Source of the DNA: a virus
Length of the DNA stretch: 35,206 bases
Reading direction: 5' to 3' (one strand)
IMG/VR virus record: IMGVR_UViG_3300048442_000357
Span: 1 to 35,206 of that record
This document shows positions 21,901-35,206 of the stretch, in pieces; the first letter of the stretch is position 1; each line of letters begins with the position of its first letter. The notes under the pieces are model-generated. The model was not told where the DNA came from. It worked only from the letters and a program-made list of their open reading frames with translations, and ran no database searches. The translations under genes were made by a program, and so were the position numbers.

Positions 21901-24900
21901 CTACATCACTAAGGTATACTGATACAACTATTGTTAATACAACAGCAGGAACTCCTGCTTGTGATGATGTAAGATCTGCTATTGATACACTAGCATACCT
22001 TTGGGCCGATGTTATTACTAATGATGCATCTGGAACATATCTTGATGCTGCTTATCTAATTGCCAAGAATGCTGATCTAATTGCAGACCAAGCACTTATT
22101 GATACCGAGGTAGCATATCCAACTTTAGGTCTTTCAAATATTCGCCAAAGAAAATGTCTTAGAGACATTAGACTTGTAATTGAAGGTCTTGTAAGAGACT
22201 TAGTTCTTGGAGGAAACCATGGTATTGTTTCTGCTGCAGAATCGTATTTTAGTGGAACTGTTCTTTCTGGAATTCCAGAAGCGCAATTGGATGAAACCAG
22301 ATATGCATTCCAGCAAGTAAAAGATCTTGCTATTGCGGCAATGCGTAATTGGACAGATGGAGATGTTTTAGCTACGACACCATCCACTGCTACGTATGCT
22401 CCAAACACTGGAGTATTTACAGTAACATTCCCAAATCCAGCAACACCTCCAGTAGCAAATCAAGATAGAATTGCTTTTGCGGAAGGAGCAATTACATTCA
22501 GTTGCGCCCATGATGGTGGTGGTAATGATGCAAGTCCATATAGAACAGACGCAAATTTCGGACAAAGTTTCTTAATTACCAATGTTTCAAATAATGGTGG
22601 AAATACTATTGTTACTGCCAACGTTGGTGTAGGTGGAAGCAATACGGACGCACACACGTTTGCAAGTGCATTAGCAAATGGAACTAAAATTATCTATGCT
22701 CCATTCGCAACAACTTCACTTATTCCAAAATTTGAAGATTGGAGTATTCTAGAAGATAGTGCAAACCCATCATGTGCTGCTATTGCTTCTGCTATCACAA
22801 CAGCACTAGCAACCTTTGATAGTATTTTAGAGTATGCTTCTGATGCTGTTAATGGTGCTGCTCCTGGATCTATTACTCAAACTTTCGGAACTTTATATGA
22901 AACAAATAGTCTTCTAACTTATCCTACTAGTTTCATCAATGACTTCAATAATAATAGGATGGCAGTTCGTGGTATATATGATGATTTGCCAATTATCGAA
23001 GCATCTCCATATACACAGAATGCTTCTGTTATCTCCTTTAGAGGTGGCGGTGGTGCAGAAATTGATGGTGATAAGGTCAAGCAACCTAACTGCCCCTTCC
23101 CTGGTCTAGAACCAGACGGAACAGCATCGTTCCCCAATCAGGGTAAGTCGATGGTTGCTGCGGCATTCACGATTGTCTCCTTTGGTGGCACAGGATATAA
23201 AGTTATCAACGATGGTTATACCCAGTTAGTTTCTGTCTTCGTTATTTTCTGCCAAGATGGTGTTCTTTGTGAGACTGGTGGTTATGCTTCTATCACCAAC
23301 TCTGCTACTAACTTTGGAACCTTTGCTCTAAGAGGAACAGGTTTCCGTAAAGATCCATATGAATTTGACGCTGGCACAGTTAATGTTGTTTCTCAAACAC
23401 CAACTGGTAGAACTATCCTTACTGTTGGCAATATCGGAAGAGAGCCACTAGAACATTACATTGTTAAAATTGATGGTTATAGAAATGCAGATCCAGATAA
23501 AGAATTCTTTATTGAATCTGTAAGTGGAGTTACTGTTGGTCCTCCTTTTACAGCAACAATTACTATTGACGATGGTATTGGAAATGGTCTAACTCTAATT
23601 AGAGAGTCTGATGGTGCAACTGTTTCTGGTCTAACAGCACTACAGCAAGCATTGACACCATCTAATTCAGCAAATGCTACCATTAGATTACACAGACCAT
23701 CTATCGTTAACTCTTCCTCACATACCTGGGAATTTGCAGGTTCTGGAACTAACTACTTAGCTCTCCCTGAGAACGGTGGAACTAAAGTTGAGGCAAACGA
23801 GCAGGTATCTGAAAACTATGGTCGTGTATATGTCTCAGGTACTGATGAACTAGGAGACTTTAAAGTTGGTACGTTTGCGAGAATTGAGAACAGAACTGGT
23901 AATATCACCTTTACTGGCACGGTTACAATTTCAGAAGTTGAATTCTTGAAACTGAAAGGTGGCGACGTTGTTGTTACCGGATTTGATAACTCGAATACTC
24001 TTGGTGGTGCTAATGCCACTGACTCCAAACTACCTACACAGAAGGCAGTTAAAGATTATATCACAAACTCTCTTGGTCCATATATTAACAAACCATATTC
24101 TACGAACGCTGTTCCTAGAGCACTGGTTGAACTTACAGATTCTGGTAAGATCTCTCTCGATCAGATCCCGGCATTAAGACCATTTAGTATTTTTACTGTC
24201 GTAAATGAAGCAGAAAGACTTTCTATCGACGGAGCACTTGCTGGAGATATTGCTATTCAAGATAATAGTGATATTGTAGATGGATCACCACAATCATTCA
24301 TTTTGAATAATGATTTAACCAGTCTGTTCCTTGGATTTGCTGTTGATGCATCATTATCATTTACTATCGGTAATGTATTTACTGGTTCTCCTTCTACTGG
24401 CAGAATTCAATCTACCGAGTATAGAGAAGGCGTATTATATAAAATCAATATTACAGATGGTGGTTCTGGATATACTGTTGCTCCAACGGTAACAATTTCT
24501 GGCGGTAATCCATCAGCAGGTTCTGTTCCTGCTACAGCAACTTGTACTATTGCTAATGGTGAAGTTGTTACTATTACTGTTACAGAAAACGCAAGTTATG
24601 TTGGCGGTTTTGGATACACAACACAACCAGTAGTTACTATTGCGGCACCTCCTGGAGCTGGCACACAAGCAACTGCTACTCCACTAATTGAAAGTAGATT
24701 GTATGGCAATATTGTCAATGCTATCAAGATGCTTGATACTGATACATTTGATGATAACAGTACTCCTGCAAATTCAGTTAATATTCTTAGGGTTGTCAAT
24801 ACATCTTCATCTCTTATTAGCAACTGGGTATCACTAAGTAGTGAAGCAGTTGGTGTTGGATCTCTTACTGGTCCTGGTGTTATTTCCACAACTTTATTGG

Positions 24901-27900
24901 GTTCAGAAGCGGCAAACTCCTTCTCCTTCTTAAGAGGAGACCAGAGATATGCAAAAACCGTTCAATCTTTAAAAGGAGCAGAAACAAGATACTTTGCGAG
25001 ATTATTTGCACAAGCATCCATAGGTGCAAGTTCGTTTATTTTCCAAGGATTATCTGGAGTTCTCAAAGGAAATACAATTTCTGATACCGTGGCTGGAGTA
25101 GTATCAGATACTACTGTAAATGGTGTTACTGTAGTTGGTGGTTTAACAACGGTTTCTTTTAACAATCCCATTGATGCCACTATTGCAGCAGGAACTGTTA
25201 TTGAATTTGGTCGTGGTGCTTCACCACTTGTTTTTGATTCTACAAATACAGGAGGAGACTTTATTGATTCTGTTGTAATTGCAAATCCAGGAACTGGATT
25301 TACTGATGGTCAGTACTTTGATGTGGCATTAGACGCACCTGCAGGAATTAATGGTAATGATCTGCGAGTAAATATTATTGTTGGAGAGAACGGACGATCT
25401 GGTGAAGTCACAACAGTTACTGTAACAAACGCTGGTGAGGGATATACCCAAGATTTCCAAGTTACTCCAAACCCATCAGTAGTTGGTTCTGGTTCTAATT
25501 TAGTTTTACTAGCAAAAGTAGCTACCACACAAAAACAATTTGCTAATATCGCATTAGATATCCAAAGAGTTTCTGATTTAACAATCTCCCAGGATCTCTT
25601 TGGTACTATTGGTGTTGCTAGATTTAAGAAGTCTCAGTTTAATATTGGTGATGAAGGAAACGGATCTATTTCTATTAAGATGGGTCCTGATAGTGGATTG
25701 GATGCTGACTTGCTAGATGGTCAGCAAGGTAATTACTACCTCAATGGTGCTTTCTTCGTTGATAGTAGTATCAATCCAGATAAACTTGCTAGTGGAACAT
25801 ACGGAATTGATATTAGTGGTAAATCTACTAACACACTTCGTCTTGATACTGGTATTAGCAACCCCAATGCAAACCCTGCTCCAAGTGATGCTGTTCAGGG
25901 TATAACACTACAAACATTGTTTAATAGTTCTAACGGTCTATTAACAGCATATCCAAGTGTAGATACTGGAAACCAGAACTCATCTAAGCATTTAGTAATG
26001 ACTCTCCGTAATGGAGAAACTGGTGGAGATGCTACATTTGGTGGCGTAAGACAACTTGCATTTGCTAATGACGATAGAATCTACTTCCGTGGATCTGGTG
26101 ATGGCGTATCAAATTATAATTCTTGGTTTGAACTTTGGACTTCTGGAAACCAAGGCGTTAGTTCTGGAATGGATTCTGATAAACTAGATAATAAAGAAGG
26201 TGTCTGGTATCAAGATGGTTGGAACATTAAAGACAATACAATTTTTGAAACTAGACTTCCAACATGGAGAAGTTCTACTAAATTCAGAGATAAGATTGAA
26301 GTTGCTTCGTATGGAGGAACAGATACTTTCTACAGAATTTTTGTAAGACAAAACCTTGATATTTCTATTGGCGGAGATTTTGAATCTACTAAGACAATTG
26401 ATCTTTACAATATTAATAAGTTAAGTGTTGGTGATTTTACAATTACAGCAACAGGACAAAATGTTGACTTAACTGATTCTTCTAATACTTATACAATGCT
26501 TACCGGAAGACTTGCTTCTGGTGGTAATATTGAATCTGCAGTTTATCTTGGATATGCCGGAGATGAAAGAGAGTTTGAACAGTATGAAATTTTTGATGAT
26601 AACACAGTTCAATATGCAGAATTAGGTAATAATTCTGGAACTGGTTATGTAAGACTTGGTAGGTATGATGGTCTTGCGGCAACTCAACCATACATCCATT
26701 TCAACTCTTCTCAAGCACAAGCAGTAGATAATAATGGAGATCCTACTTATAACTCTGCTATTATCGCTGATGGTGGCAATGCAAACGAAGGATCTGGTAG
26801 TCTTGAGTTTAAAGTTCTTAACGAAAATGAACTTAAAGTTAATAGCAATATTATTTGGAACGCAGGTAATGTCGCATTTAATAGTGCTAATGTAGCTTCC
26901 ACAACATCACTCAAGTCTGCTGTGATGAGAGATACCTCTGGTAATTTTACTGCCGGAACAATTACCGCTGGTATTATTGGTGCTGCTTCTCTCAACGTAT
27001 TGAAAACTGGTGATACCATGACTGGATCACTCAGTATTACTGGTGCCAGCAATGGATTAACTATTCAAACTGGAAATATTGCAATCAATGGTGGAGCAGG
27101 AACTGGAACTACTGGAAATCTAACAGTTAGCGGAAATCTTTTAGTTGATGAAGGAACTCTATATGTAAACAAAACAAATAATAGAGTAAGTGTTAGAGCA
27201 TATGATGATCCTCTAAATGCAGGAACACCATTTGAACCAAATCCTATTACTGGATTCAATGTTTATTCACAGTCAGGAAGTTTGAATATTCAAACTAATA
27301 CTGATCTTCGACAGAATACCATTTATCAGCAGCAAATTTGGAATTATGTTGATGGTGGTGAAACTGGTTTACTACTTACTCATGGTGCAACTGTAACTAC
27401 ACAGGCACAGTGGGGTATTTCTTGCCATAGAACTACTTCTAATTCTGGTGAACTTATCTTTAGAACAAGAACAGCATCTGCAGAAAATAAAAATAGATTG
27501 GTAATTGATAATAGTGGCAATTTAATTCCTGGTGCTGATAGTTCTCAAGATTTTGGAACTAGTGCTAAGAGATGGCAAAATTCTTATGTTGATATAGGAA
27601 TTTTTACAGACAGTGTAAGAATTGCCGATGGTTCTGCAAACAAAGAAGCAGATATTCATTTCAGAGGTGGTGGAACTGGTAATTCAGGAGGTAAAAATTT
27701 CCGTATTGGTTCTAATATTGGCGGTGGTATTGATACTTGGAGCATATATGCATCAGAAACAAATGGTAGCAGTGATTGGAAGAGTTTAGCAAGTCCTGCA
27801 CAAGCTCCTGCACTTTCAATCCAAGGAACAAACAATAGAGTTGCAATTAACACAACCCAATTCTCCGGCACAGACAACACTGATCCAAACAACCCAGAGA

Positions 27901-28301
27901 ATCGTAATTATATTCTGAATGTTCAGGGTGATATGAACCTCAATGGTATTTTATATCAAGATAATGCGGAGTTTGTTACTTCCAGATGGACAGAAGCATC
28001 CACAACTAATATCAATGCCAACATCAAAGATATCTACAGGTTATCTGCAGTAGGCATAAATAATTCGAGTCCTACATATGCACTAGATGTTGATGGAGAC
28101 ATTAACCTAACTGGAGCATTCCGTGTAGGAGGAACTGCACAATGGATTGATTCAGCAGGTATTATTAGAGTATCCAATACGGTAATTAGTGAGAATGTTA
28201 CTATTCCTGGTAGTACAATTGCATCTAGTCAAGGTCCAATTACAATAACAAACACATTTACCGTTGTAATTAACTCTGGTGCGGAATGGAGTATCAATTA
28301 A
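18921..28301 (+). CDS. Giant tail fibre protein with beta-helix and helical modules
   Basis: This 3126-residue protein has the N-terminus MSFHINSDKEKIRGVNPKLI, then VGTGANEQEIMRLQKDPVSG, typical of cyanophage fibres. In order: GxGY repeats (about 53-145); an aromatic module (WAANVIVQKDQYRY, about 190-245); FPRSITPLLGDRSDKIATTEYV split around 265-290; a beta-helix start (GRIYVSQQIGSDLNDGRSAV, then RTIKKAAQEA, from 292); helical modules with paired cysteines (about 773-1310); more beta-helix (VISFRGGGGAEIDGDKVKQP to ALRGTGFRKDP, about 1350-1480); TDSKLPTQKAVKDYI (about 1698); GxGY repeats (about 1840-1925 and 2110-2200); and TMTGSLSI and SSQDFGTSAKRWQNS fibre motifs. It ends in VINSGAEWSIN. Probably a trimeric long fibre for host binding. 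It has its own late promoter. Which end meets the host is not shown. Confidence 0.86.
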   Translation: MSFHINSDKEKIRGVNPKLIGDNEATIRVGTGANEQEIMRLQKDPVSGLPRVGINRTGQRVNNVNIDQGGSGYNQVPLVVISSPPSGGVQAQASASVFNGRVVSVSVNDPGNGYTSAPSVSFTGGNGSGAAATAFLDTVEFELDINGAIRTSTSIISDTARILNLDIENFITPDLNLRAPNLKTYMNGTGTPWAANVIVQKDQYRYSVANVYQAVSTGTTGSLAPEHKDGIEANGTVNFKHIGFRVTTPTEFQYLETGEAGAFPRSITPLLGDRSDKIATTEYVLNLATNDVGGRIYVSQQIGSDLNDGRSAVNPVRTIKKAAQEAWKTPGVKETLIVSGGNYVEDNPISLPPDCSVVGDNLRLVIIRPGNVGKHIFKFGDKNYVTGVTYRDKVDSNGDATGTWDFAMVFDDKQRIIVDNEVNGDFGIEFPVGHQIFGPARFRISFQNNTGLALLQSGVQLLGLNTGARANSSGVSFTSSTGANAFVAGTIDVTLASGSFIEGDQYSYITSAAVGGALSQTISGTSGENSLRFTTDPSTDLPVNNVVFLDDTDNSSFSSGFYQVSVVNNGNAPTYWDVTFVPILGAVGWDSTLSDTTITINSASPTSNTLDSTNLKSIRAEGEVVSYDEDIISTLPITRLDFSLQGDPSIATGGFQSDIYGDAEDIGGVVVYTSALVGRTNFHEFKEGQEIILENLPTSGPDLSFLNGKQRIYKVLEDADGRARRFVIPKKVPSLTTANFAVSEFAVVKSYSKSVTLSLLNSPNKFAVATPAERRYQDACQLIRNNRDYIAEEVVGIINDQFKSDYYSVYNLDTGNNTFDIYLGPLDHANTYVSGGTVTFGGTSYAISGFVYDTAVTGVATITTTAVAIAALSEDDTVQLADILISCTAGEKIYPSYSSPTNANTGSNGDEQCKQDVIHFLNALVRDLEFGSNHNIIEAASKYIVGGKIAFIEDEIIQNVRAIEYARELAIYAMCNWRIKNRTISDPLYTTKYATSLRYTDTTIVNTTAGTPACDDVRSAIDTLAYLWADVITNDASGTYLDAAYLIAKNADLIADQALIDTEVAYPTLGLSNIRQRKCLRDIRLVIEGLVRDLVLGGNHGIVSAAESYFSGTVLSGIPEAQLDETRYAFQQVKDLAIAAMRNWTDGDVLATTPSTATYAPNTGVFTVTFPNPATPPVANQDRIAFAEGAITFSCAHDGGGNDASPYRTDANFGQSFLITNVSNNGGNTIVTANVGVGGSNTDAHTFASALANGTKIIYAPFATTSLIPKFEDWSILEDSANPSCAAIASAITTALATFDSILEYASDAVNGAAPGSITQTFGTLYETNSLLTYPTSFINDFNNNRMAVRGIYDDLPIIEASPYTQNASVISFRGGGGAEIDGDKVKQPNCPFPGLEPDGTASFPNQGKSMVAAAFTIVSFGGTGYKVINDGYTQLVSVFVIFCQDGVLCETGGYASITNSATNFGTFALRGTGFRKDPYEFDAGTVNVVSQTPTGRTILTVGNIGREPLEHYIVKIDGYRNADPDKEFFIESVSGVTVGPPFTATITIDDGIGNGLTLIRESDGATVSGLTALQQALTPSNSANATIRLHRPSIVNSSSHTWEFAGSGTNYLALPENGGTKVEANEQVSENYGRVYVSGTDELGDFKVGTFARIENRTGNITFTGTVTISEVEFLKLKGGDVVVTGFDNSNTLGGANATDSKLPTQKAVKDYITNSLGPYINKPYSTNAVPRALVELTDSGKISLDQIPALRPFSIFTVVNEAERLSIDGALAGDIAIQDNSDIVDGSPQSFILNNDLTSLFLGFAVDASLSFTIGNVFTGSPSTGRIQSTEYREGVLYKINITDGGSGYTVAPTVTISGGNPSAGSVPATATCTIANGEVVTITVTENASYVGGFGYTTQPVVTIAAPPGAGTQATATPLIESRLYGNIVNAIKMLDTDTFDDNSTPANSVNILRVVNTSSSLISNWVSLSSEAVGVGSLTGPGVISTTLLGSEAANSFSFLRGDQRYAKTVQSLKGAETRYFARLFAQASIGASSFIFQGLSGVLKGNTISDTVAGVVSDTTVNGVTVVGGLTTVSFNNPIDATIAAGTVIEFGRGASPLVFDSTNTGGDFIDSVVIANPGTGFTDGQYFDVALDAPAGINGNDLRVNIIVGENGRSGEVTTVTVTNAGEGYTQDFQVTPNPSVVGSGSNLVLLAKVATTQKQFANIALDIQRVSDLTISQDLFGTIGVARFKKSQFNIGDEGNGSISIKMGPDSGLDADLLDGQQGNYYLNGAFFVDSSINPDKLASGTYGIDISGKSTNTLRLDTGISNPNANPAPSDAVQGITLQTLFNSSNGLLTAYPSVDTGNQNSSKHLVMTLRNGETGGDATFGGVRQLAFANDDRIYFRGSGDGVSNYNSWFELWTSGNQGVSSGMDSDKLDNKEGVWYQDGWNIKDNTIFETRLPTWRSSTKFRDKIEVASYGGTDTFYRIFVRQNLDISIGGDFESTKTIDLYNINKLSVGDFTITATGQNVDLTDSSNTYTMLTGRLASGGNIESAVYLGYAGDEREFEQYEIFDDNTVQYAELGNNSGTGYVRLGRYDGLAATQPYIHFNSSQAQAVDNNGDPTYNSAIIADGGNANEGSGSLEFKVLNENELKVNSNIIWNAGNVAFNSANVASTTSLKSAVMRDTSGNFTAGTITAGIIGAASLNVLKTGDTMTGSLSITGASNGLTIQTGNIAINGGAGTGTTGNLTVSGNLLVDEGTLYVNKTNNRVSVRAYDDPLNAGTPFEPNPITGFNVYSQSGSLNIQTNTDLRQNTIYQQQIWNYVDGGETGLLLTHGATVTTQAQWGISCHRTTSNSGELIFRTRTASAENKNRLVIDNSGNLIPGADSSQDFGTSAKRWQNSYVDIGIFTDSVRIADGSANKEADIHFRGGGTGNSGGKNFRIGSNIGGGIDTWSIYASETNGSSDWKSLASPAQAPALSIQGTNNRVAINTTQFSGTDNTDPNNPENRNYILNVQGDMNLNGILYQDNAEFVTSRWTEASTTNINANIKDIYRLSAVGINNSSPTYALDVDGDINLTGAFRVGGTAQWIDSAGIIRVSNTVISENVTIPGSTIASSQGPITITNTFTVVINSGAEWSIN
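21247..22020 (+). repeat. Helical Cys-pair module, fibre copy A
   Basis: DACQLIRNNRDYIAEEV, then a beta insertion (about 21340-21640), then QCKQDVIHFLNALVRDLEFG, SNHNIIEAASKYI, a LAIYAMCNW motif and ACDDVRSAIDTL. It aligns by motif order with the copy at 190-663. Confidence 0.72.
22045..22850 (+). repeat. Helical Cys-pair module, fibre copy B
   Basis: DAAYLIAKNADLIADQAL, KCLRDIRLVIEGLVRDLVLG, GNHGIVSAAESYF, LAIAAMRNW, a beta insertion (about 22370-22760), then SCAAIASAITTALATFDSIL. The closest partner is copy A, which it follows directly. Confidence 0.72.
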
Positions 28302-28318
28302 TTAGGAGATAAATAACA

Positions 28319-28525
28319 ATGTCGGAAATACAAGTCGGCACCTTAAATATGGAGTATGGAACAAAGGGAGGATTGCAACTCCCTAAATACTCTTTGAGTG
28401 CCACAGGAGCTCCAGCATTACCCAGTACTGGAGTTGCAACTGGAGATATCTGTTTTGAAATTGACGAAAAAATTGTAATGATTTACGTCACTAACCAATG
28501 GATAGAAATATCAGATATTCTATAA
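28319..28525 (+). CDS. Small fibre-head-module protein
   Basis: A 68-residue protein, MSEIQVGTLNMEYGTKGGLQ, then LPKYSLSATG, GDICFEIDEK and YVTNQWIEISDIL. It matches the first 60 residues of the next protein in layout (VG.L.....G..LP.....P..G...G......V.I......W...S). It therefore looks like an isolated copy of a fibre N-terminal module rather than a fragment. A clear Shine-Dalgarno AGGAG (28304-28308) lies 10 bases before the ATG. It follows the giant fibre by 17 bases, so it may be co-transcribed with it and could cap or connect a fibre. The function is not otherwise visible. Confidence 0.72.
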   Translation: MSEIQVGTLNMEYGTKGGLQLPKYSLSATGAPALPSTGVATGDICFEIDEKIVMIYVTNQWIEISDIL

Positions 28526-28550: not shown

Positions 28551-29636
28551 ATGTCTAGATTAAATGTAGGAAAATTAATTGCATCTGTTGGTATCAGATT
28601 GCCTGGATTTACTGATTCTACCAGACCTGGCGGAGAGCAAGGTTTGATGATCTATAATTCACAAAGTGGAATTGTAGAAATTTTTGATGGTAGTGAATGG
28701 AACAATGTATCAACCGGTTCTTTTACATTGAATGCAGTTGGTGGTTCTGAATATGAATCAAATGGTTATAAGTATCATGTATTTGTTGGTCCAGGAACTT
28801 TTAGTGTAACAGAAGCAAAAGCAGGAGCAACAATTGATGTCCTTGTAGTTGCTGGCGGTGGTGGTGCTGGAAACTACTATTACTGTGGCGGTTCTGGTGC
28901 TGGTGGTGTAGTTAATGTTCAAAACTATCCCGTGCAGGCGATTGGTAATTCTGCTCCAGTCACAGTTGGTGCGGGTGGCGCATATCCATATGGTGATGGA
29001 ATCGATTCATCTTTTGCCGGAGTACTAACTGCTAAGGGTGGTGGTTCTGGCGGAGGTTATCCATATGGTTATAGCGGAAAACCCGGTGGTTCTGGTGGAG
29101 GTGGAAGTCTCTACGTATCCGGCAGTGGAACAGCATCTCAATCAAGCATCAGTCAATCAACTGGATCTGGTCAATTAGTCAACAACGCTGGAAATCCTGG
29201 CGGTCCAGGACCAGGATGGCCAGGCACCCCAACTGGTGGTGGCGGTGGTGGCGGTGCCGGTGCTTCAGGTCAACCATGGGGCCCGGGTAAATGTGGTGAT
29301 GGTGGTGTAGGTTTACAAATTAATGGATTCAGTGCAGCAGATCATCCACAACTAGCTACAGCAGGAAAATATGGTGGCGGTGGTGGCGGTGGAACATATT
29401 CACCAAATGATCCAAGTCGTAAAGGATATGGTGGTATCAACCCAGGAGGATCCGCTGGAGATCCACAAGGGCAACGTTATGGTGGTGGTAATGGAGGAAC
29501 TAGTGGTCCATCGGGCAATGGTTATGCTTCTGAAGCTGGAATGGAAAGAACTGGTGGTGGCGCTGGCGGACCAGATTATCCGCATTCCATTGGCGGTGGA
29601 TCTGGCGTTGTAGCAATACGTTATTTAACTAATTAG
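28551..29636 (+). CDS. Glycine/tyrosine-rich tail adhesin-like protein
   Basis: A 361-residue protein. Residues 1-55 are a fibre-head module (MSRLNVGKLIASVGIRLPGF, IVEIFDGSEWNNVS). From about residue 70, YKYHVFVGPGTFSV and IDVLVVAGGGGAG start a glycine-rich domain of the type found in phage and bacterial surface proteins. The rest is dominated by runs of Gly with Tyr, Pro and Ser (NYYYCGGSGAGG, GGYPYGYSGKPGGSGGGG, GGGGGGGAGASGQPWG, GGKYGGGGGGGTYSP-like stretches), ending GGGSGVVAIRYLTN. Glycine-rich tips built of packed polyglycine helices are known in T-even-type adhesins (gp38 class), which is a reasonable structural analogue, not a proven homologue. The two Cys lie in loop-like Gly stretches. 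A weak late-like box (TATAAGTA, 28521) sits 30 bases upstream. The reading frame is intact. Confidence 0.8.
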   Translation: MSRLNVGKLIASVGIRLPGFTDSTRPGGEQGLMIYNSQSGIVEIFDGSEWNNVSTGSFTLNAVGGSEYESNGYKYHVFVGPGTFSVTEAKAGATIDVLVVAGGGGAGNYYYCGGSGAGGVVNVQNYPVQAIGNSAPVTVGAGGAYPYGDGIDSSFAGVLTAKGGGSGGGYPYGYSGKPGGSGGGGSLYVSGSGTASQSSISQSTGSGQLVNNAGNPGGPGPGWPGTPTGGGGGGGAGASGQPWGPGKCGDGGVGLQINGFSAADHPQLATAGKYGGGGGGGTYSPNDPSRKGYGGINPGGSAGDPQGQRYGGGNGGTSGPSGNGYASEAGMERTGGGAGGPDYPHSIGGGSGVVAIRYLTN

Positions 29637-29647
29637 GATATTTTCAA

Positions 29648-30055
29648 ATGGCACATTTTGCACAATTAAATGAAGATGATGTAGTGGTATTTGTAACACC
29701 ACTAGATAATAAACTTTTACTAGATTCAACTGGATCAGAACAGGAAAGTAAAGGAATAGATTATTTAAAAAACCAATTTGGATCGAATACCAAATGGGTA
29801 CAAACTTCATATCACCATAAATTTAGGGGAATTTATGCTGGTCTTGGATTTCAATACAATAGAGAAACTGATAGATTTGAAGCGCCAAAACCTAGACAAT
29901 TTCCTTCATGGGTTTGGGATGAAGGTAGACACGTATGGAGACCACCAGTACCAAGACCCGGATTATCTCCAGAACAATATGATCAAGGATTCATGCCACA
30001 ATGGGATGAAGAAACAATTTCTTGGAAAATTATTCAAGGACCACCAACTTTCTGA
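29648..30055 (+). CDS. Trp-rich conserved phage protein
   Basis: A 135-residue protein starting MAHFAQLNEDDVVVFVTPLD. It belongs to a group of uncharacterised proteins common in marine phages, recognisable by MAHFA, a central KWVQTSYHHKFRGIYAGLGF stretch and a C-terminal FPSWVWDE...W..P block. It carries six Trp (KWV, PSW, VWD, HVW, PQW, SWK), an unusual density, and a proline-rich segment (RPPVPRPGLSPEQY). No signal peptide or membrane segment was seen. It sits 11 bases after the adhesin stop and 8 bases before the sulfotransferase, bridging the adhesin genes and the enzyme cassette. It may be a fibre-associated protein or a substrate of the cassette; both are inference. Related proteins often sit next to tail fibre genes. 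Confidence 0.75.
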   Translation: MAHFAQLNEDDVVVFVTPLDNKLLLDSTGSEQESKGIDYLKNQFGSNTKWVQTSYHHKFRGIYAGLGFQYNRETDRFEAPKPRQFPSWVWDEGRHVWRPPVPRPGLSPEQYDQGFMPQWDEETISWKIIQGPPTF

Positions 30056-30063
30056 TATATTAA

Positions 30064-30840
30064 ATGAGTGAAAAAACATATTACTTTCTTACTGGGTTTC
30101 CCAGGAGTGGTAATACTTTATTATCTTCTTTGTTAAATCAAAATCCAGAAATCCTTGTATATGCAAATAGTATGCTCCCAGAGATGCTGTTTGATTTGCA
30201 TATAAAAAAAGATTCAAATCCAACATTTAACAATTTTCCGGATCATAGACCTATTGAAAATATATCTAAAAATTTATTTGACAACTATTATAGTCATTTA
30301 AATTCAAAGTATATTTTTGATAGGTCTTCTTGGTCTTCAGAAATAATGACAGAGTTGCTACGTGAGTATTGTCCCAATCAAACTAAAATATTATTTTTAC
30401 ATCGTGATCCTATAGAAATTTTAGCATCATTCATAAAATGGTCAACAGAAAACAAAACTTTTTTAGATAATTTTGATACATTAGAAAGTAAATGCAATCA
30501 TTTGATGAGACATGATGGTCCTATTATGAGGCATTTTACATCAATACACAATATTATCTCTAATGATATTCCATGTATGTTTGTTTCTTACGATAATATC
30601 GTTAAAGATACGCACATAACTATAGAAAAAATTTACAAATTTTTTGGCATCATGTTATACGAGCATGACTATATTAAAGTAGAAGAGTTTAGTGTAGATG
30701 GTATCTCATACAACGATACTGTCTATGGTAATAACTTACATAAGGTAAGACAAACAATTTCCAGAGATGTATATTCTCCAGAAAAATACTTATCTGACAG
30801 TATAATTTTAAAATGGCAGCATCTAAAAATACCAGTTTAA
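30064..30840 (+). CDS. Sulfotransferase family protein (PAPS-dependent)
   Basis: This 258-residue protein is likely to transfer a sulfuryl group from PAPS to a hydroxyl or amine acceptor in the infected cell. Near the N-terminus, TGFPRSGNTLLSSLLNQNP (residues 10-28) is the 5'-phosphosulfate-binding loop (PRSGTTLL type, with Asn where Thr is more usual). The 3'-phosphate site is RDPIEILAS, with R114 and S122 at the usual spacing after a hydrophobic strand (KILFLHRDP). Later, PCMFVSYDNIVKD and EKIYKFFGI fit the fold's C-terminal helices. The length suits small soluble sulfotransferases. The acceptor cannot be read from sequence. It lies eight bases after the Trp-rich gene, with a 44-base AT-rich gap after it. 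Possible acceptors include Tyr on virion proteins, glycans and metabolites. Confidence 0.82.
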   Translation: MSEKTYYFLTGFPRSGNTLLSSLLNQNPEILVYANSMLPEMLFDLHIKKDSNPTFNNFPDHRPIENISKNLFDNYYSHLNSKYIFDRSSWSSEIMTELLREYCPNQTKILFLHRDPIEILASFIKWSTENKTFLDNFDTLESKCNHLMRHDGPIMRHFTSIHNIISNDIPCMFVSYDNIVKDTHITIEKIYKFFGIMLYEHDYIKVEEFSVDGISYNDTVYGNNLHKVRQTISRDVYSPEKYLSDSIILKWQHLKIPV

Positions 30841-30853
30841 AACTAGAATATAT

Positions 30854-30863
30854 AGTATATACT
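30854..30863 (+). promoter_or_regulatory. AT-rich palindrome before the first oxygenase (weak promoter candidate)
   Basis: AGTATATACT is a perfect 10-base palindrome in the gap between the sulfotransferase and the first oxygenase, within a run of alternating A/T. It could include a -10-like TATACT, but no convincing -35 or late box is present. A GGAG at 30868-30871 lies 13 bases before the ATG. Confidence 0.25.
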
Positions 30864-30884
30864 TAATGGAGTTTTTGGATTATT

Positions 30885-31511
30885 ATGGCATTTCAAACAA
30901 TGTGGTATTTCACAGATTTACCGGGAGATGTTATTGATTGCATTGAAAAAGACTTAACAAATCAATTTGATCAACAATTAGAAGAATCAAAACTTTCGGG
31001 TGATGTGGTAGATGTTGACAGAAGATCTTCTACAAATGCTTGGGTTCCAACTACCCATTGGGTTTCTGGATTTGTTTGGCATTATATATCAAAAGCAAAT
31101 AGAGAAAATTTTTTATATGATTTGACACATGTTGATGGTGAAACTATGCAATACACCAGATACAAAGAAGGAGATTATTACAAATGGCATACTGATGCTG
31201 GTATTGGAACGTCATATAAACCACAAGCATCAGACAATTATGGTAACAAAGATATAGAAGTACAAGATTTTCTTACAACTAGCGTTGAAAATATAAGAAA
31301 ATTATCTTTTATTCTTCAACTCTCAGATGCAGAAGATTATGAAGGAGGAAACGTTCAATTTTTAGATGACAATCGAAAATCATTTTTTGCTCCTAGGAAA
31401 AAAGGAACTATGATTCTTTTTGATTCTAGAACACAACATAGAGTTTTAAAAGTGACAAAAGGAATTAGAAAATCATTGGTTGGATGGACCAGTGGACCTA
31501 GGTGGAAATAA
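30885..31511 (+). CDS. 2OG-Fe(II) oxygenase (prolyl 4-hydroxylase-like / PKHD type)
   Basis: A 208-residue non-haem iron oxygenase that would use 2-oxoglutarate and O2 to hydroxylate a substrate. The jelly-roll core carries H102-x-D104 (YKWHTDAG), distal H185 (FDSRTQHRV) and R195 for 2-oxoglutarate (KGIRKSLVGW). YEGGNVQFLD and KKGTMILFDS are the expected strands before the distal His. The layout matches the PKHD/prolyl 4-hydroxylase group, common in cyanophages. It is the first of four oxygenase-like genes in a row. The stop is two bases before the next ATG, and that gene's Shine-Dalgarno (AGGTGG) lies inside this gene, so coupling is likely. Substrate unknown: peptidyl Pro or Lys, or a metabolite, would be normal for the family. 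Confidence 0.87.
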   Translation: MAFQTMWYFTDLPGDVIDCIEKDLTNQFDQQLEESKLSGDVVDVDRRSSTNAWVPTTHWVSGFVWHYISKANRENFLYDLTHVDGETMQYTRYKEGDYYKWHTDAGIGTSYKPQASDNYGNKDIEVQDFLTTSVENIRKLSFILQLSDAEDYEGGNVQFLDDNRKSFFAPRKKGTMILFDSRTQHRVLKVTKGIRKSLVGWTSGPRWK

Positions 31512-31513
31512 TC

Positions 31514-32179
31514 ATGAATATTGAAAACGTAGAAAAACTTTTTAACAGTACAGCAGGCAGTAAGACATCAAATCCAGAGTTTGATAAAAGCGGATTTGTT
31601 TTAGTAAAAGGTATTATAGATCCTTCTCGTCTGATATGTGATATCCCAGAAGAGAAAGGTCTTTACCATTACTATGGTAAAGAAGATAAATTTACACACA
31701 TTCCAAATGAAGACCAGGTTCCTGGATCTACATCTAGATATTATTGGCCTCCATATAAAGAAATTCATAATGATCTAAAAAACAAAATCCAAGATATCAT
31801 TGGAAAAAAACTTTACCATACTTATTACTACGATAGATTTTATTTTGACGGTCAGGATTTAAGTCCGCATACAGATAGAGATGCATGTGAAATTTCTATC
31901 TCAGTTCATATTGGTACTAACATTAAAGAACCATGGGGATTTTGGATTGAAAATGGTGATGGAAAACGTGCTCGCATTTACATGGAACCTGGAGACGGAG
32001 TAATCTATAAAGGTTGTGAAAGAATGCACTGGCGAGAAAAAATGCCAGAAAAGAAACAAGGATTTATTAATAGAATCTTTAGAAGAAAAACAAATGATGC
32101 ATACTACCATCAGGCATTTTTCCACTATGTTCTGGCAGATGGCAATAGAGCACATTGTGCTTTTGATGCATCTAGATAA
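31514..32179 (+). CDS. 2OG-Fe(II) oxygenase-like protein (HxD...HWRE type)
   Basis: A 221-residue protein. I place the start at ATG 31514 (MNIENVEKLF), with AGGTGG at 31500-31505, rather than the in-frame GTG at 31502 that overlaps the previous gene. The iron site reads H119-T-D121 (LSPHTDRDACEIS) and H172 (CERMHWREKMP), with GDGVIYKGCE just before the distal His. This 'YKGCE..HWRE' arrangement is known from a group of phage and bacterial prolyl-hydroxylase-like proteins. The C-terminus QAFFHYVLADGNRAHCAFD is also characteristic. FDKSGFVLVKGIID near residue 25 resembles the N-terminal strand of this group. Its stop TAA shares one base with the next ATG (TAATG). The substrate is unknown. Confidence 0.8.
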   Translation: MNIENVEKLFNSTAGSKTSNPEFDKSGFVLVKGIIDPSRLICDIPEEKGLYHYYGKEDKFTHIPNEDQVPGSTSRYYWPPYKEIHNDLKNKIQDIIGKKLYHTYYYDRFYFDGQDLSPHTDRDACEISISVHIGTNIKEPWGFWIENGDGKRARIYMEPGDGVIYKGCERMHWREKMPEKKQGFINRIFRRKTNDAYYHQAFFHYVLADGNRAHCAFDASR

Positions 32180-32733
32180 TGGACTACAATTTAGTTTCTG
32201 ATGACTTAAGGATTCTTTCCATTAAAGAGTTCTTACATCCAAATATAATTGAAAGATTTTTTATCAAAAAAATCTTAGAAGACAACTACCAAAAAGATGC
32301 GATTACAAAAAATACTTTAGGGTATAACTATCTAATAAATTCAGATCACAAATTTTTTACAAATTTATATTCAAAATTTTTAGATGTTAGTAAAAATATT
32401 TTTTCCGGCATAAATATTTCCCCAAATAATTCATCAAAACTTTGGGGTTATAGATCAAATAAGGATGTATGGGCGTCAGTATTTCATGATCATGAAAAAA
32501 CATCAACAATAAATGCTGTATATTATTTTGATTTGAGTCCTAGTGATAGTATTTCATTTCAAAAAAACAATAAAGTATTTACATATTCCCCAGAAAAATA
32601 TGAGTTGCTAATTTTTCCTGGAACGTTAAAACACAAACCAGATAGACCACTAAAAAATAAAATTAGATACTCTATCAATATAGAAATAATTACAACTCAA
32701 TCTGCATATTATTTGTTCTATGAAAAATTATAA
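32179..32733 (+). CDS. Putative 2OG-Fe(II) oxygenase-like protein (HxH type)
   Basis: A 184-residue protein with weaker but readable oxygenase features. H103-D-H105 (VFHDHEKTS) precedes a strand AVYYFDLSP, and FPGTLKHKPDRPLKNKIRYS supplies H152 and a basic residue, followed by SINIEI. The pattern 'H.H......YY......P......FPG.L.H......R.S.N' resembles the putative 2OG-Fe(II) oxygenase family (PF13759 type) also seen in the next gene. HxH stands where classical enzymes have HxD/E, so activity is less certain. The N-terminal 80 residues are Lys/Asn-rich and unrecognised. It starts on the last base of the previous stop and overlaps the next gene by 14 bases. Confidence 0.62.
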   Translation: MDYNLVSDDLRILSIKEFLHPNIIERFFIKKILEDNYQKDAITKNTLGYNYLINSDHKFFTNLYSKFLDVSKNIFSGINISPNNSSKLWGYRSNKDVWASVFHDHEKTSTINAVYYFDLSPSDSISFQKNNKVFTYSPEKYELLIFPGTLKHKPDRPLKNKIRYSINIEIITTQSAYYLFYEKL

Positions 32734-33316
32734 TATTGAGTACATTTATCCAACCCCATTGTATCAAACACATGTTTATAATTTAAATGACATTCAGGAT
32801 GAATTAAAATTAATTGTAGATCATACAGAATTTGTGCAGATTGAACGTTGGAAAAATACTCACTACTTATCTTCAAAGTCATTTGAGGACGATCTTATTA
32901 AAGATAACAATCTTGTTTATTTTTCTGATGAACTTGATTTTCACATTAGAAATTTTTGTAAAGAGATGAACTTTGAGATTAGACCATATAAGACAGAATC
33001 TTGGATATCTCTTTTTAAAAATAAAAATTATGGTCACACCCATTCACATGGACATGTTGATATCTCAGGAGTTTATTATTATCAAACTTCTGGTGATGAT
33101 GGAGATTTATTTTTTGAATGTCCCGTGCCAAACATGTCATCTTCGTTTATGTTTTTTGAATCTATGGCACAGAGATGGAATCACAAACCAGAAGTTGGGA
33201 AATTGCTACTATTTCCTGGATGGTTAAGACATGGTATTTCTACTAATAATACCGACAATACAAGAATTAGTATTTCTTTCAACATAACTTTCGATAGAGG
33301 AGTAATAAAAAAATGA
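32720..33316 (+). CDS. Putative 2OG-Fe(II) oxygenase (PF13759-like)
   Basis: A 198-residue protein starting MKNYNIEYIYPTPLYQTHVY, the 'P..P.Y' opening of this family. The core is ESWISLFKNKNYGHTHSHGH, then VDISGVYYYQT, DLFFECPVP, KLLLFPGWLRHGIS (H171) and TRISISFNITFDRG. The family motif H-x-H.....lSGvyY aligns with H108-S-H110; H112-V-D114 immediately after is an alternative HxD reading, so the iron ligands are ambiguous. Members of this family are common in marine T4-like phages, with substrates mostly unknown. It overlaps the previous gene by 14 bases and the halogenase start by four (ATGA), which suggests coordinated translation with the halogenase. Confidence 0.8.
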   Translation: MKNYNIEYIYPTPLYQTHVYNLNDIQDELKLIVDHTEFVQIERWKNTHYLSSKSFEDDLIKDNNLVYFSDELDFHIRNFCKEMNFEIRPYKTESWISLFKNKNYGHTHSHGHVDISGVYYYQTSGDDGDLFFECPVPNMSSSFMFFESMAQRWNHKPEVGKLLLFPGWLRHGISTNNTDNTRISISFNITFDRGVIKK

Positions 33317-34887
33317 AAATTGTAATTGCTGGAGGTGGATTAACTGGATGGATATCTGCTTTTGTGTTATCCAAAAAATATCCAGACAACCAATTTGTTG
33401 TTATTGATAGCAGTAAAGATCCTACTATTGGTGTTGGAGAAGGAACTACTGGATATTTTGCTAACAAATTTTTGAGAGGGGAAGATTTTACAGTACGAGA
33501 GTTTTTTGAAAAAACTAAAGCTACCCCAAAATTAGGTATTGAATTTAATGATTGGGGAAGAAAAGGAGATTCTTTTTTAAGTCCTATTGATGGATCTGCT
33601 ACAAAACAATGCAATATAGATTTTTCTACATATTTTGACTATACTCAACCAGGACAACTTGGAGAGTCTAGTTTATTAGGAACACTAAGAAAACACAATA
33701 GAGTTCCATTTAAGAGAGGATCTGTAGATAATACGAATGGTATAGAAAACGATTTTATTTGGGAAGACGTAGCAGTTCATTTAGATAATGAATCTACAAT
33801 TAAATTTTTTAAAGAAAAAACTATCAATAGGGAAAACGTAGCGTGTATTGATGATTCTATTGTAAGCGTAGTCAAAAGTAAAAAAGGAGTTGAAAAAGTA
33901 GTATGTGAAAATACTTCTGTATATGGAGACTTGTTTTTAGATTGCACTGGTTTCAAACGATTGTTATCTAAAAATGTAAAATGGATTAGTTATAGTAAAT
34001 ATCTACCAACAAACTCTGTTATCACTTTCCAGACAACAGAAAATCATAGTGGATCACAAGAAAATATTGAGATTGGTATTGATGGAGAAAAAGTAGTAAA
34101 AGGATACTTAACACAAGTTGATTTAGTTACAAAAGCAAATGCCATGAATGATGGTTGGTCTTGGTTAATTCCAACTCAAGAAAGGTATGGTGGTGGGTAT
34201 GTTTATTGTGATTACTTTACAAATGAAGACAAAGCTACTAAAGAATTATTAGAAAAGTATCCTGGAGCTGAGATTGGCAAATCTTTCAAATTTGATTCCG
34301 GCAAACAAAAAACTTCATGGAACGATAACGTTATCTCAATGGGATTAGCATATCAATTCCTAGAACCTTTGCAAGCTACTAGTATTCATTTTACATTAGT
34401 TCAATTAGATTTGATTGAACGATATTGTATTAAAGGAACAAAAGAATTTACTTTGGATTCTAATAGTAGAATTAAATACAACGAACATGTAGATAGAGTT
34501 ATTGAAAACTTTAAAGACATGATTAATATGCATTACTCAGGAAAAAGAAATGATACTAAATTTTGGAAATATATTAGCAAACAATATCATCTAACAGATT
34601 TTACAAAACATATTATTAAAACTTTAAGAACTAGAGGATTGTTTTATTGGGATTTTACTAATGAGTATGGAACAACAGGACAAGAATTATGGATGTATCC
34701 ACTCTTAGGATTAAATCATCTTACTAAAGATGAGTGTTTTGGTTTGTTAATAAATAGTAAGTTGATGCAATATGCTTCAGAAGAATATTACAGACTTAGT
34801 ACAGAGGCGTCAACATTACACAACAAATATTTTTACAAAGAAGAGTTCTTTGTAATCTTAGATAAATATAAGAACACATCAACATAG
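33313..34887 (+). CDS. Flavin-dependent halogenase (tryptophan halogenase family, VirX1-like)
   Basis: A 524-residue enzyme expected to use FADH2, O2 and halide to make a hypohalous species that halogenates an aromatic substrate. FAD binding: IAGGGLTGW (G7, G9, G12) and GVGEGTTG (from residue 40). K73 in TPKLGIEFNDW corresponds to the catalytic lysine of PrnA/RebH. GWSWLIP (281-287) is the WxWxIP halogenase motif that distinguishes the family from monooxygenases. LFLDCTGFKRLL and LAYQFLEPLQATSIHF (E351) are also typical. The length matches PrnA/RebH. The cyanophage Syn10 enzyme VirX1, a family member that prefers iodide, is the natural comparison. The ATG overlaps the previous TGA. No flavin reductase gene is visible, so reduced FAD would come from the host or another phage locus. 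The substrate is not deducible. Confidence 0.9.
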   Translation: MKIVIAGGGLTGWISAFVLSKKYPDNQFVVIDSSKDPTIGVGEGTTGYFANKFLRGEDFTVREFFEKTKATPKLGIEFNDWGRKGDSFLSPIDGSATKQCNIDFSTYFDYTQPGQLGESSLLGTLRKHNRVPFKRGSVDNTNGIENDFIWEDVAVHLDNESTIKFFKEKTINRENVACIDDSIVSVVKSKKGVEKVVCENTSVYGDLFLDCTGFKRLLSKNVKWISYSKYLPTNSVITFQTTENHSGSQENIEIGIDGEKVVKGYLTQVDLVTKANAMNDGWSWLIPTQERYGGGYVYCDYFTNEDKATKELLEKYPGAEIGKSFKFDSGKQKTSWNDNVISMGLAYQFLEPLQATSIHFTLVQLDLIERYCIKGTKEFTLDSNSRIKYNEHVDRVIENFKDMINMHYSGKRNDTKFWKYISKQYHLTDFTKHIIKTLRTRGLFYWDFTNEYGTTGQELWMYPLLGLNHLTKDECFGLLINSKLMQYASEEYYRLSTEASTLHNKYFYKEEFFVILDKYKNTST

Positions 34888-34896
34888 GTGATAACC

Positions 34897-35097
34897 ATGG
34901 ATCCAGCACAACTTAAAACAAATTTTGAAGAGCAAATTGCTACAACCGAAAAGCAAATTGCTGAACTAGAAACAAATCTAGTTAAAGCAAAAGAGTATAA
35001 GATTAAACTAGAAGGAGGTCTAGAAACTCTAGGTCTTCTAGAAGACAAACCTGAAGAGGAAGCAGCAGAAGCAGCGCCAACAGAAGTAGTAGAATAA
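34897..35097 (+). CDS. Small acidic coiled-coil protein
   Basis: A 66-residue protein. I choose ATG 34897 (MDPAQLKTNFEEQIATTEKQ) because AGGTG (34886-34890) sits six bases upstream; an in-frame GTG at 34888 overlaps that site. Residues 4-40 show heptad-like Leu/Ile spacing with alternating charge (IAELETNLVKAKEYKIKLEG), so a coiled coil is likely. The C-terminus is acidic and low-complexity (EDKPEEEAAEAAPTEVVE). Small proteins of this kind occur near structural genes in cyanophages without a known role. It follows the halogenase by nine bases and is the last gene before a strong terminator. Confidence 0.76.
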   Translation: MDPAQLKTNFEEQIATTEKQIAELETNLVKAKEYKIKLEGGLETLGLLEDKPEEEAAEAAPTEVVE

Positions 35098-35104
35098 CTC
35101 TCAG

Positions 35105-35139
35105 ATCCCTTCTTCCTAAATAGGTAAGAAGGGATTTTT
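35105..35139 (+). terminator. Rho-independent terminator after the enzyme cassette
   Basis: ATCCCTTCTT (35105-35114) pairs perfectly with AAGAAGGGAT (35126-35135). An inner CCT/AGG pairing can extend the stem across a single-base bulge. TTTTT closes it at 35135-35139. It begins seven bases after the previous stop and would close the transcript holding the enzymes and the small coiled-coil gene. Confidence 0.88.
35115..35122 (+). promoter_or_regulatory. Late-promoter-like box inside the terminator loop
   Basis: CCTAAATA contains CTAAATA, as at 18879-18885, and lies in the loop of the 35105-35139 hairpin, 32 bases before the next ATG. If used, the leader would start within the 3' arm and include the AAGAAGGGA purine tract as a possible ribosome-binding site. 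It is only a motif match and the spacing is shorter than at the other late promoters. Confidence 0.45.
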
Positions 35140-35146
35140 GTGTGTA

Positions 35147-35206
35147 ATGGCGTCTCCAAATTCAAGAGCTGATCTTATCACATATTGTAAGAGGCAACTT
35201 GGTGAG
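35147..35206 (+). CDS. Start of a neck protein, probably gp13 (3' end outside window)
   Basis: Twenty codons are visible, MASPNSRADLITYCKRQLGE. This resembles the 'R....YC.R.LG.P.IEIN' N-terminus of cyanophage neck protein gp13, which closes the head-tail junction, and the position after the fibre region fits the T4 order (…wac-13-14-15). The same short N-terminal motif occurs in other phage structural proteins, so the identification is tentative. The purine tract in the terminator's 3' arm (AAGAAGGGA) is the only visible ribosome-binding candidate. Confidence 0.6.
   Translation, partial: MASPNSRADLITYCKRQLGE

Follow-up and report, generated by a model that had tools for sequence, protein, structure and literature searches.

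What do the enzymes encoded between the adhesin-type genes and the neck gene of this marine bacteriophage act on? For more than a decade, the 2OG oxygenases of cyanophages, the "ferrochelatases" of phages and the tryptophan halogenases of viruses have been treated as auxiliary metabolic genes of unsettled function. Genes of these three families lie here in one cassette, within a stretch of 35,206 nt that was analysed as a whole and is called the window below. We propose, with a probability of roughly 0.6 and on correlational grounds, that the cassette may hydroxylate the receptor-binding adhesin and, in many relatives, may also halogenate it.

Gene organization of the locus

Six co-oriented genes for a sulfotransferase, four oxygenase-like proteins and a halogenase occupy positions 30064 to 34887, with a glycine-rich adhesin pair upstream and the neck gene downstream. 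This arrangement, with the coordinates given in the earlier note, is confirmed. All features given here are on the + strand. Pfam and PHROG profiles identify a tail fibre, a Gly_rich_2 adhesin and phrog_7759 upstream of the cassette. The long tail-fibre protein of 3126 aa (18921 to 28301; phrog_5342 tail fiber protein, 4636 bits) is followed by a small ORF in the fibre/adhesin interval without a Pfam or PHROG match (28319 to 28525). Next come the Gly-rich adhesin that is the proposed substrate (28551 to 29636; PF21722 Gly_rich_2, 4e-7, and composition) and its partner (29648 to 30055; phrog_7759, 1e-31). The sulfotransferase gene (30064 to 30840) is the only cassette gene set apart, ending 44 nt before the gene that starts at 30885. 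The four junctions from there to 34887 are overlaps of 10, 1, 14 and 4 nt, in gene order, a slightly tighter linkage than the overlaps or 2-nt gap first claimed. When ORF6 is read from the ATG at 31514, its 10-nt overlap with ORF5 becomes a 2-nt gap.

Downstream of the cassette are a gene for a small coiled-coil-like phrog_580 protein (34888 to 35097; 5e-21), a terminator-like hairpin (about 35102 to 35138; -20.8 kcal/mol, z -4.8) with CTAAATA in its loop, and the start of the neck gene gp13 (35147 to 35206), which is cut by the window end. The near-identical contig L010 has the same six genes and a complete neck gene, which encodes the head-tail adaptor Ad2 (phrog_211, 8e-44). The late-promoter motif CTAAATA occurs 4 times in the window, against 9.9 expected; this is no enrichment, and therefore no promoter is claimed.

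The adhesin and its partner

The window adhesin resembles T-even gp38, a receptor-binding adhesin, in being a short Gly-rich protein whose gene follows the fibre gene and in which variable loops are set apart by Gly-rich blocks. It has a Gly_rich_2 domain. By this profile and the fibre-adjacent position it is a candidate gp38-like PGII adhesin. The excerpts of PMC12892980 present T-even gp38 as a polyglycine-II sandwich with hypervariable loops, and describe no hydroxylation or halogenation of coliphage gp38. The Gly-rich part of the window adhesin contains 6.3% Tyr, 7.3% Pro and 2.8 Pro-Gly per 100 residues.

The phrog_7759 protein is a probable assembly partner or chaperone of such adhesins. 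A Gly-rich ORF lies within 5 kb of it in 39 of 41 loci. It is modelled as a compact fold (AF2 pLDDT 93) with no confident PDB match. The earlier note had suggested that the enzymes modify both the adhesin and this six-Trp protein. The aromatic residues of phrog_7759, however, are conserved across a family in which halogenases are mostly absent, and its Trp positions show no or almost no variation. They are probably structural, and the protein is probably not a substrate. The other half of the suggestion is supported, in that the composition of the adhesin follows the type of enzyme encoded nearby.

The oxygenases and the sulfotransferase

Four cassette genes encode members of the 2OG-Fe(II) oxygenase superfamily, which is defined by the DSBH fold, HxD/E...H ligands and a 2OG-binding Arg. 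ORF5 (30885 to 31511) is an Oxy_3 protein (PF13640 2OG-FeII_Oxy_3, 1e-14), and its H102xD104, H185 and R195 are invariant in 7 sequences. ORF8 (32720 to 33316) is an Oxy_5 protein (PF13759, 4e-19; phrog_81, 4e-31). ORF7 (32179 to 32733; phrog_81, 9e-10) is a divergent Oxy_5 relative with the family's H.H...H...R columns retained. Both ORF6 and ORF7 score under the Pfam cut-offs but are nonetheless superfamily members. ORFs 7 and 8 are the weaker ones because they have H.H...H...R and not HxD, ORF7 also because of its low Pfam score.

ORF6 (31502 to 32179, or from the alternative ATG at 31514; phrog_2954, 2e-58) carries the PHROG/RefSeq family name ferrochelatase. Its HxD...H is invariant in 37 sequences. 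In Foldseek searches, the best PDB matches of its AlphaFold model are prolyl-4-hydroxylases (E 7e-9), with the P. putida enzyme, human PHD2 and the PBCV-1 collagen P4H at the top. No ferrochelatase, which would have the chelatase fold, is among the 50 PDB matches listed, the top ones being prolyl hydroxylases and other 2OG oxygenases. As modelled, the fold of ORF6 is prolyl-hydroxylase-like, which contradicts a ferrochelatase identity. ORF6 shares the double-stranded beta-helix and the HxD...H ligands with the three named enzymes at approximately 10-15% identity. The known P4Hs are linked to collagen, HIF or EF-Tu, whereas ORF6 is linked to a Gly-rich phage adhesin.

The first protein of the cassette is a PAPS sulfotransferase by profile (PF13469, 2e-14; PF00685, 4e-12), by its 5'-PSB loop (PRSGNT) and by its 3'-PB motif (RDP...S). 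The motifs FPRSGNT and R-x-P...S are mostly conserved in its relatives.

The halogenase

The last enzyme (33313 to 34887; PF04820 Trp_halogenase, 2e-77) is a flavin-dependent halogenase of the PrnA/VirX1 superfamily. It has the GxGxxG (GGGLTG) and WxWxIP (GWSWLIP) motifs and the invariant catalytic Lys, K73. The catalytic Glu is replaced by Gln, giving EPLQAT instead of EPLE(S/A)T. This replacement is found in 14 of 180 halogenase ORFs, the window and its copies counted, and the Gln-bearing enzymes form a supported subclade that includes S-RIM44. A Glu-to-Gln change inactivated another halogenase, according to the excerpts of PMC8407142. Because of EPLQAT and that inactivation, we do not classify the window enzyme as a tryptophan halogenase with a PrnA-type catalytic Glu.

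VirX1 of cyanophage Syn10, an iodinating flavin-dependent halogenase of the same superfamily (PDB 6qgm), ranks second among the PDB matches to the window halogenase (5e-39). A relative, syn9 gp42, is identical to VirX1 over the aligned stretches seen. Its gene directly follows Gly-rich adhesins and is itself followed by a run of 2OG genes. The window enzyme and gp42 are about 26% identical and differ in having EPLQ and EPLE, respectively.

Such enzymes raise the question of whether the cassette serves a small-molecule or host-surface pathway. Its product, diffusible or a glycan, would be halogenated, sulfated or carbamoylated and would aid infection or block competitors; linkage to the adhesin would then stem from joint selection for a role at the surface. 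The classical substrate of PrnA-like enzymes is free tryptophan. In vitro, many small aromatic compounds serve as VirX1 substrates, but the active site of VirX1 is large and accessible, which fits a bulky substrate (both from excerpts of PMC8407142).

Recurrence beside adhesins in other phages

Comparison of gene neighbourhoods, a check proposed in the earlier note, finds the grouping of Gly-rich adhesin, partner and tailoring enzymes again in unrelated phages. Among 58 VirX1-type viral halogenase loci, 53 have a Gly-rich ORF within 5 kb, 51 have 2OG genes, and 37 have phrog_580 within 5 kb of the halogenase (in-house profile). In syn9-type cassettes, a small phrog_580-like gene comes after the halogenase, and the syn9 cassette also encodes a JmjC_2 protein-hydroxylase-type domain. 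The linkage is seen in P-TIM40 and S-WAM1, as well as in syn9 itself, and in cpn60-bearing contigs. Bellamy and S-CAM8 have 2OG genes, but a halogenase was not found in either. Homologues lying mostly away from fibre genes had been named as evidence against virion modification, and on this point the lineages divide. The closest relatives of the window halogenase, the EPLQ clade, are away from adhesins in seven of nine cases, some of them on short contigs, whereas VirX1-type enzymes almost always adjoin them.

The non-T4 contig L011 has the order Gly-rich, phrog_7759, 2OG, carbamoyltransferase, sulfotransferase, 2OGs, sulfotransferase and halogenase. This combination of enzymes resembles natural-product tailoring sets. 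However, no scaffold-forming enzyme or precursor peptide was recognised in the window cassette, in L011 or in the annotated regions of syn9, P-TIM40 and S-WAM1; a natural-product biosynthetic cluster would have a synthase, a ligase or a RiPP precursor, along with export. We consider a small-molecule product quite improbable.

Linkage was also measured genome-wide in the 10 phage genomes that carry Gly_rich_2. Within 8 kb of this domain lie 34 of 108 2OG genes (11.0 expected, rotation p<=0.0002) and 7 of 12 halogenases (1.1 expected, rotation p 0.0008). Approximately two thirds of the 2OG genes in these genomes are away from adhesins. A rival reading is a late-gene hot spot, in which the recombination-prone, late-expressed 3' end of the fibre operon gathers auxiliary metabolic genes. 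The enzymes would then act on host metabolites, through 2OG consumption and NtcA signalling, tetrapyrrole or iron, or halogenated indoles. In its favour, such genes have been published as auxiliary metabolic genes (PMC3037559, PMC9599517, PMC11561400, PMC10452541), other parts of the genome, close to nrd, hli and talC, hold many 2OG genes and also some halogenases, and the fibre 3' region varies. Against this, the genes at the site represent a narrow range of chemistry (2OG, halogenase, sulfotransferase, carbamoyltransferase), and the "ferrochelatase" ORF6 is not one by fold.

Covariation of adhesin residues with enzyme type

The number of 2OG genes is correlated with the Pro-Gly content of the adhesin (rho 0.66, n=126), and fresh scans replicated this (0.54, n=132). 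The correlation is 0.61 when partial on GC and background Pro, and 0.53-0.56 at the level of adhesin clusters, for which Gly-rich adhesins were grouped by shared k-mers. Independent contrasts gave r=0.36 (p=6e-7), and sister pairs were divided 17 to 3. Pro-Gly ranks first of 120 dipeptides both before and after phylogenetic correction; Pro alone is weaker after correction (r=0.18). In the A11 subset, Pro is flat and Pro-Gly reaches only 0.29. No single 2OG family suffices as the sole driver of Pro-Gly after phylogenetic correction.

The halogenase is associated with other residues. Tyr, His and Trp together make up 10.5% of adhesins with a VirX1-type halogenase, 6.1% of those with other halogenase lineages (n=24) and 3.5% of those without a halogenase. 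At the cluster level all three residues are still enriched (p=3e-7 for the sum), and no enrichment is seen for Phe or Pro. Other ORFs barely differ in Tyr/His/Trp content. In single-residue tests, Tyr enrichment with 2OG genes is absent or negative. The presence of a sulfotransferase does not track adhesin Tyr, so the earlier idea that adhesin Tyr is sulfated finds no support here; a sulfotransferase without a residue signal in the adhesin counts in favour of a small-molecule product.

Pro-Gly tracks the 2OG genes and Tyr/Trp/His track the halogenase, a pattern that protein modification predicts. A hot spot predicts neither match, including the sparing of Phe, and we regard it as unlikely. A small-molecule pathway likewise leaves the covariation of adhesin residues unexplained. 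The modified protein could also be another one, such as the fibre shaft, the baseplate, phrog_7759 or a ribosomal or EF-Tu-like protein, with adhesin composition differing for independent structural reasons. Action on EF-Tu is in fact known for bacterial 2OG hydroxylases, for example P. putida P4H (complex 4iw3), and Pro-Gly could merely stiffen polyglycine-II helices. Structure alone, however, hardly accounts for a double dissociation in the adhesin that is specific to enzyme type, and we give this possibility very little weight. The covariation could stem from shared ancestry, habitat or host, though several controls were passed.

Proposed modification of the adhesin

We infer that the substrate is the adhesin. 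Late in infection, the gp38-like Gly-rich adhesin and its dedicated partner phrog_7759 would be made, and enzymes of the cassette would act on the adhesin ahead of assembly or while it proceeds. Hydroxylation by the 2OG oxygenases, ORF6 among them, may fall on loop residues, mainly the Pro of X-Pro-Gly, a site suggested by the covariation of 2OG genes with Pro-Gly. In phages bearing a halogenase, this enzyme may halogenate Tyr/Trp/His side chains of the same loops. Modification would alter loop rigidity, hydrogen bonding or affinity for the host receptor. The likeness to hydroxylated and halogenated animal adhesives drawn in the earlier note is an analogy only.

Virus-encoded enzymes act on the surface proteins of the virus itself in collagen hydroxylation and glycosylation by mimivirus and in tail glycosylation of mycobacteriophages. 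Here, by comparison, the reactions would be hydroxylation and halogenation of a phage receptor-binding adhesin. A limited literature search found nothing on fibre hydroxylation or a phage adhesin prolyl hydroxylase. The 2OG oxygenase and "ferrochelatase" auxiliary genes of cyanophages and pelagiphages belong to the same families as those in the window and are often co-located (PMC9599517, PMC3037559). Their published reading is host metabolism, whereas we propose tailoring of the adhesin.

More tentatively, and at somewhat less than even odds, many aquatic tailed phages may share a mobile module of an adhesin and its tailoring enzymes. The linked enzymes would give the receptor-binding tip hydroxyproline together with Tyr/Trp/His that carry a halogen, possibly iodine or bromine, and the VirX1-type viral halogenases would be protein halogenases. 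The tip would thus have a chemistry beyond the 20 amino acids. If these enzymes do act on the adhesin, a large and abundant group of presumed metabolic genes would move to host recognition, and VirX1 would gain a physiological substrate. Phage host range would then be set by enzymes as well as by adhesin sequence.

Organization of the cassette

The 35.2-kb window contains the tail region of a relative of T4-like cyanophages, with baseplate and fibre genes, including one for a 3126-aa fibre, in its upstream part. Genes for a Gly_rich_2 adhesin (28551-29636) and a phrog_7759 protein (29648-30055) are followed by six co-oriented enzyme genes (30064-34887), encoding a sulfotransferase, four 2OG-Fe(II) (2OG) oxygenase-type proteins and a flavin-dependent halogenase. 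Then come a phrog_580 gene, a strong terminator-like hairpin and the neck gene. The hairpin (35102-35138), immediately 5' of the neck gene, has CTAAATA in its loop and might serve both as a stop and as a late promoter. The block is present again in a near-identical contig (L010), which also has the full neck gene.

Pfam matches above cut-off support the sulfotransferase, the halogenase and two of the oxygenases; the remaining two oxygenases are assigned from PHROG families and conserved ligand columns. The 30885-31511 2OG protein keeps HxD, H and R across all aligned relatives. The 31502-32179 product is a "ferrochelatase" by database name. Its structure model, built from 37 sequences with pLDDT > 90 over most of the core, best matches Pseudomonas putida prolyl-4-hydroxylase (E 7e-9), PHD2 and a viral collagen prolyl hydroxylase in the PDB. 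In the halogenase, the flavin motif, GWxWxIP and the catalytic Lys are all present. The enzyme is closest in the PDB to a tryptophan halogenase and to VirX1, the iodinating enzyme of cyanophage Syn10. Gln occupies the catalytic Glu position (EPLQAT), which is not a private mutation since it is common to a supported subclade. Because Glu-to-Gln abolished the activity of another halogenase (PMC8407142), the chemistry of the window enzyme is uncertain.

Recurrence beside adhesins

Similar cassettes are found in other phages. Syn9, P-TIM40 and S-WAM1 share the order fibre, Gly-rich adhesins, small gene, halogenase(s), phrog_580-like small gene and several 2OG genes, as does S-RIM44, judged from domain positions. 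The adhesin-linked cassette of syn9 also encodes gp49 (L002:15105-15815), with a JmjC_2 domain (PF08007), a fold that includes protein hydroxylases. A phage outside the T4 group (L011) has Gly-rich, phrog_7759, 2OG, carbamoyltransferase, sulfotransferase, 2OG genes, sulfotransferase, halogenase and 2OG, in that order. An extreme form of the cassette is in large phages (contigs L032, L030, L043 and L063), with 3-5 halogenases, 8-10 2OG genes and Gly_rich_2 adhesins per contig; cpn60 (GroEL) is shown for L032 and L063. A NodU-like carbamoyltransferase lies on the opposite strand between the Gly-rich adhesin and 2OG genes in S-SSM5 (L018, 5157-6821) and S-CAM8 (L023, 3178-4788).

Of 41 IMG/VR loci with phrog_7759 and enough flank, 39 contain a Gly-rich ORF no more than 5 kb away from it. 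Of 36 sulfotransferase loci, 33 contain 2OG genes and 18 a Gly-rich or phrog_7759 gene; examples lacking the latter adjoin other repetitive probable adhesins. VirX1-type halogenases have Gly-rich genes nearby in 53 of 58 loci and 2OG genes in 51. For the nearest relatives of the window halogenase, the counts are 38/47 for 2OG genes and only 5/47 for Gly-rich genes. Other arrangements are also seen. In L178 (3433-13571) and L112, possibly phages of SAR11, sulfotransferase and 2OG genes have tandem repetitive propeller-like proteins (phrog_27227) on one side and a virion structural gene on the other. The S-SRM01 halogenase (L005, 11995-14576) is flanked by a tail-fibre gene and by one that carries the annotation adhesin tip complex. 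Nine loci (L046, L047, L051, L053, L055, L057, L061, L065 and L071) share a gene order with tandem halogenases and without 2OG genes; in L057 these come after a T4 gp15-type tail-sheath stabiliser.

Across ten phage genomes with Gly_rich_2, the stretches up to 8 kb either side of this domain contain 34 of the 108 2OG genes versus 11.0 expected (rotation p<=0.0002), the other 74 lying elsewhere, and 7 of the 12 halogenases versus 1.1 expected (p=0.0008). These p-values overstate independence, since the genomes are related and were found via enzyme or phrog_7759 searches.

Covariation of enzymes and adhesin residues

An adhesin modified by these enzymes would be expected to vary in composition with them. 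In a first locus set, the Pro content of the Gly-rich segment correlates with how many 2OG genes lie within 4 kb. Pro-Gly, picked out after this result, was then tested on a replicate from two fresh scans (n=132), giving rho 0.55 for Pro and 0.54 for Pro-Gly, with a dose response. Pooled values (n=258) are 0.63 and 0.64, and 0.59 and 0.61 as partial correlations on GC and other-ORF Pro. The 2OG labels come from iterated in-house profiles at the superfamily level, and the counts are minimum values owing to contig ends. In independent contrasts on a phrog_7759 tree, Pro-Gly reaches r=0.36 (p=6e-7) and Pro 0.18. Where sister pairs differ in 2OG number, the richer side has more Pro-Gly 17 times and less 3 times. 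Pro-Gly ranks top of 120 dipeptides scanned, corrected or uncorrected, and no single 2OG family explains the signal. The marine A11 subset is weakly positive for Pro-Gly and flat for Pro. X-Pro-Gly is the classical prolyl-4-hydroxylase context of collagen-like substrates.

Next to a halogenase, adhesins are richer in the residues that electrophilic halogenation can target. Tyr+His+Trp, with His included post hoc after the data had been seen, makes up 10.5% at VirX1-type loci, 6.1% at 24 loci of other lineages and 3.5% without a halogenase; in other ORFs the contrast is slight (6.4-7.0% versus 6.1%). At the 24 loci, Trp and His rank as the top two of the 20 residues by enrichment, and that of Tyr is also significant. 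After clustering of the adhesins, the enrichment holds for Tyr, His and Trp, not for Phe or Pro; the earlier note had predicted Tyr and Trp. The window adhesin carries both signatures, with 6.3% Tyr and 2.8 Pro-Gly per 100.

Tyr content of the adhesin does not track sulfotransferase presence. The six-Trp phrog_7759 protein, also proposed earlier as a substrate, fares poorly in that role. An assembly partner is the more probable identity, because the protein has a compact, well-predicted fold and its Trp residues are invariant or nearly so in phages mostly without halogenases.

Tailoring or metabolism

The literature covered by our searches reads these genes as auxiliary metabolism (PMC3037559, PMC10452541, PMC9599517, PMC11561400), and it yielded no previous suggestion of an adhesin-tailoring role for them. 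A metabolic hot spot would be in line with that reading, but it makes no prediction of enzyme-matched residue changes, and we consider it unlikely. Of the two, the sequence evidence favours a cassette that would tailor the adhesin, since residue changes matched to particular enzymes are expected under that proposal alone.
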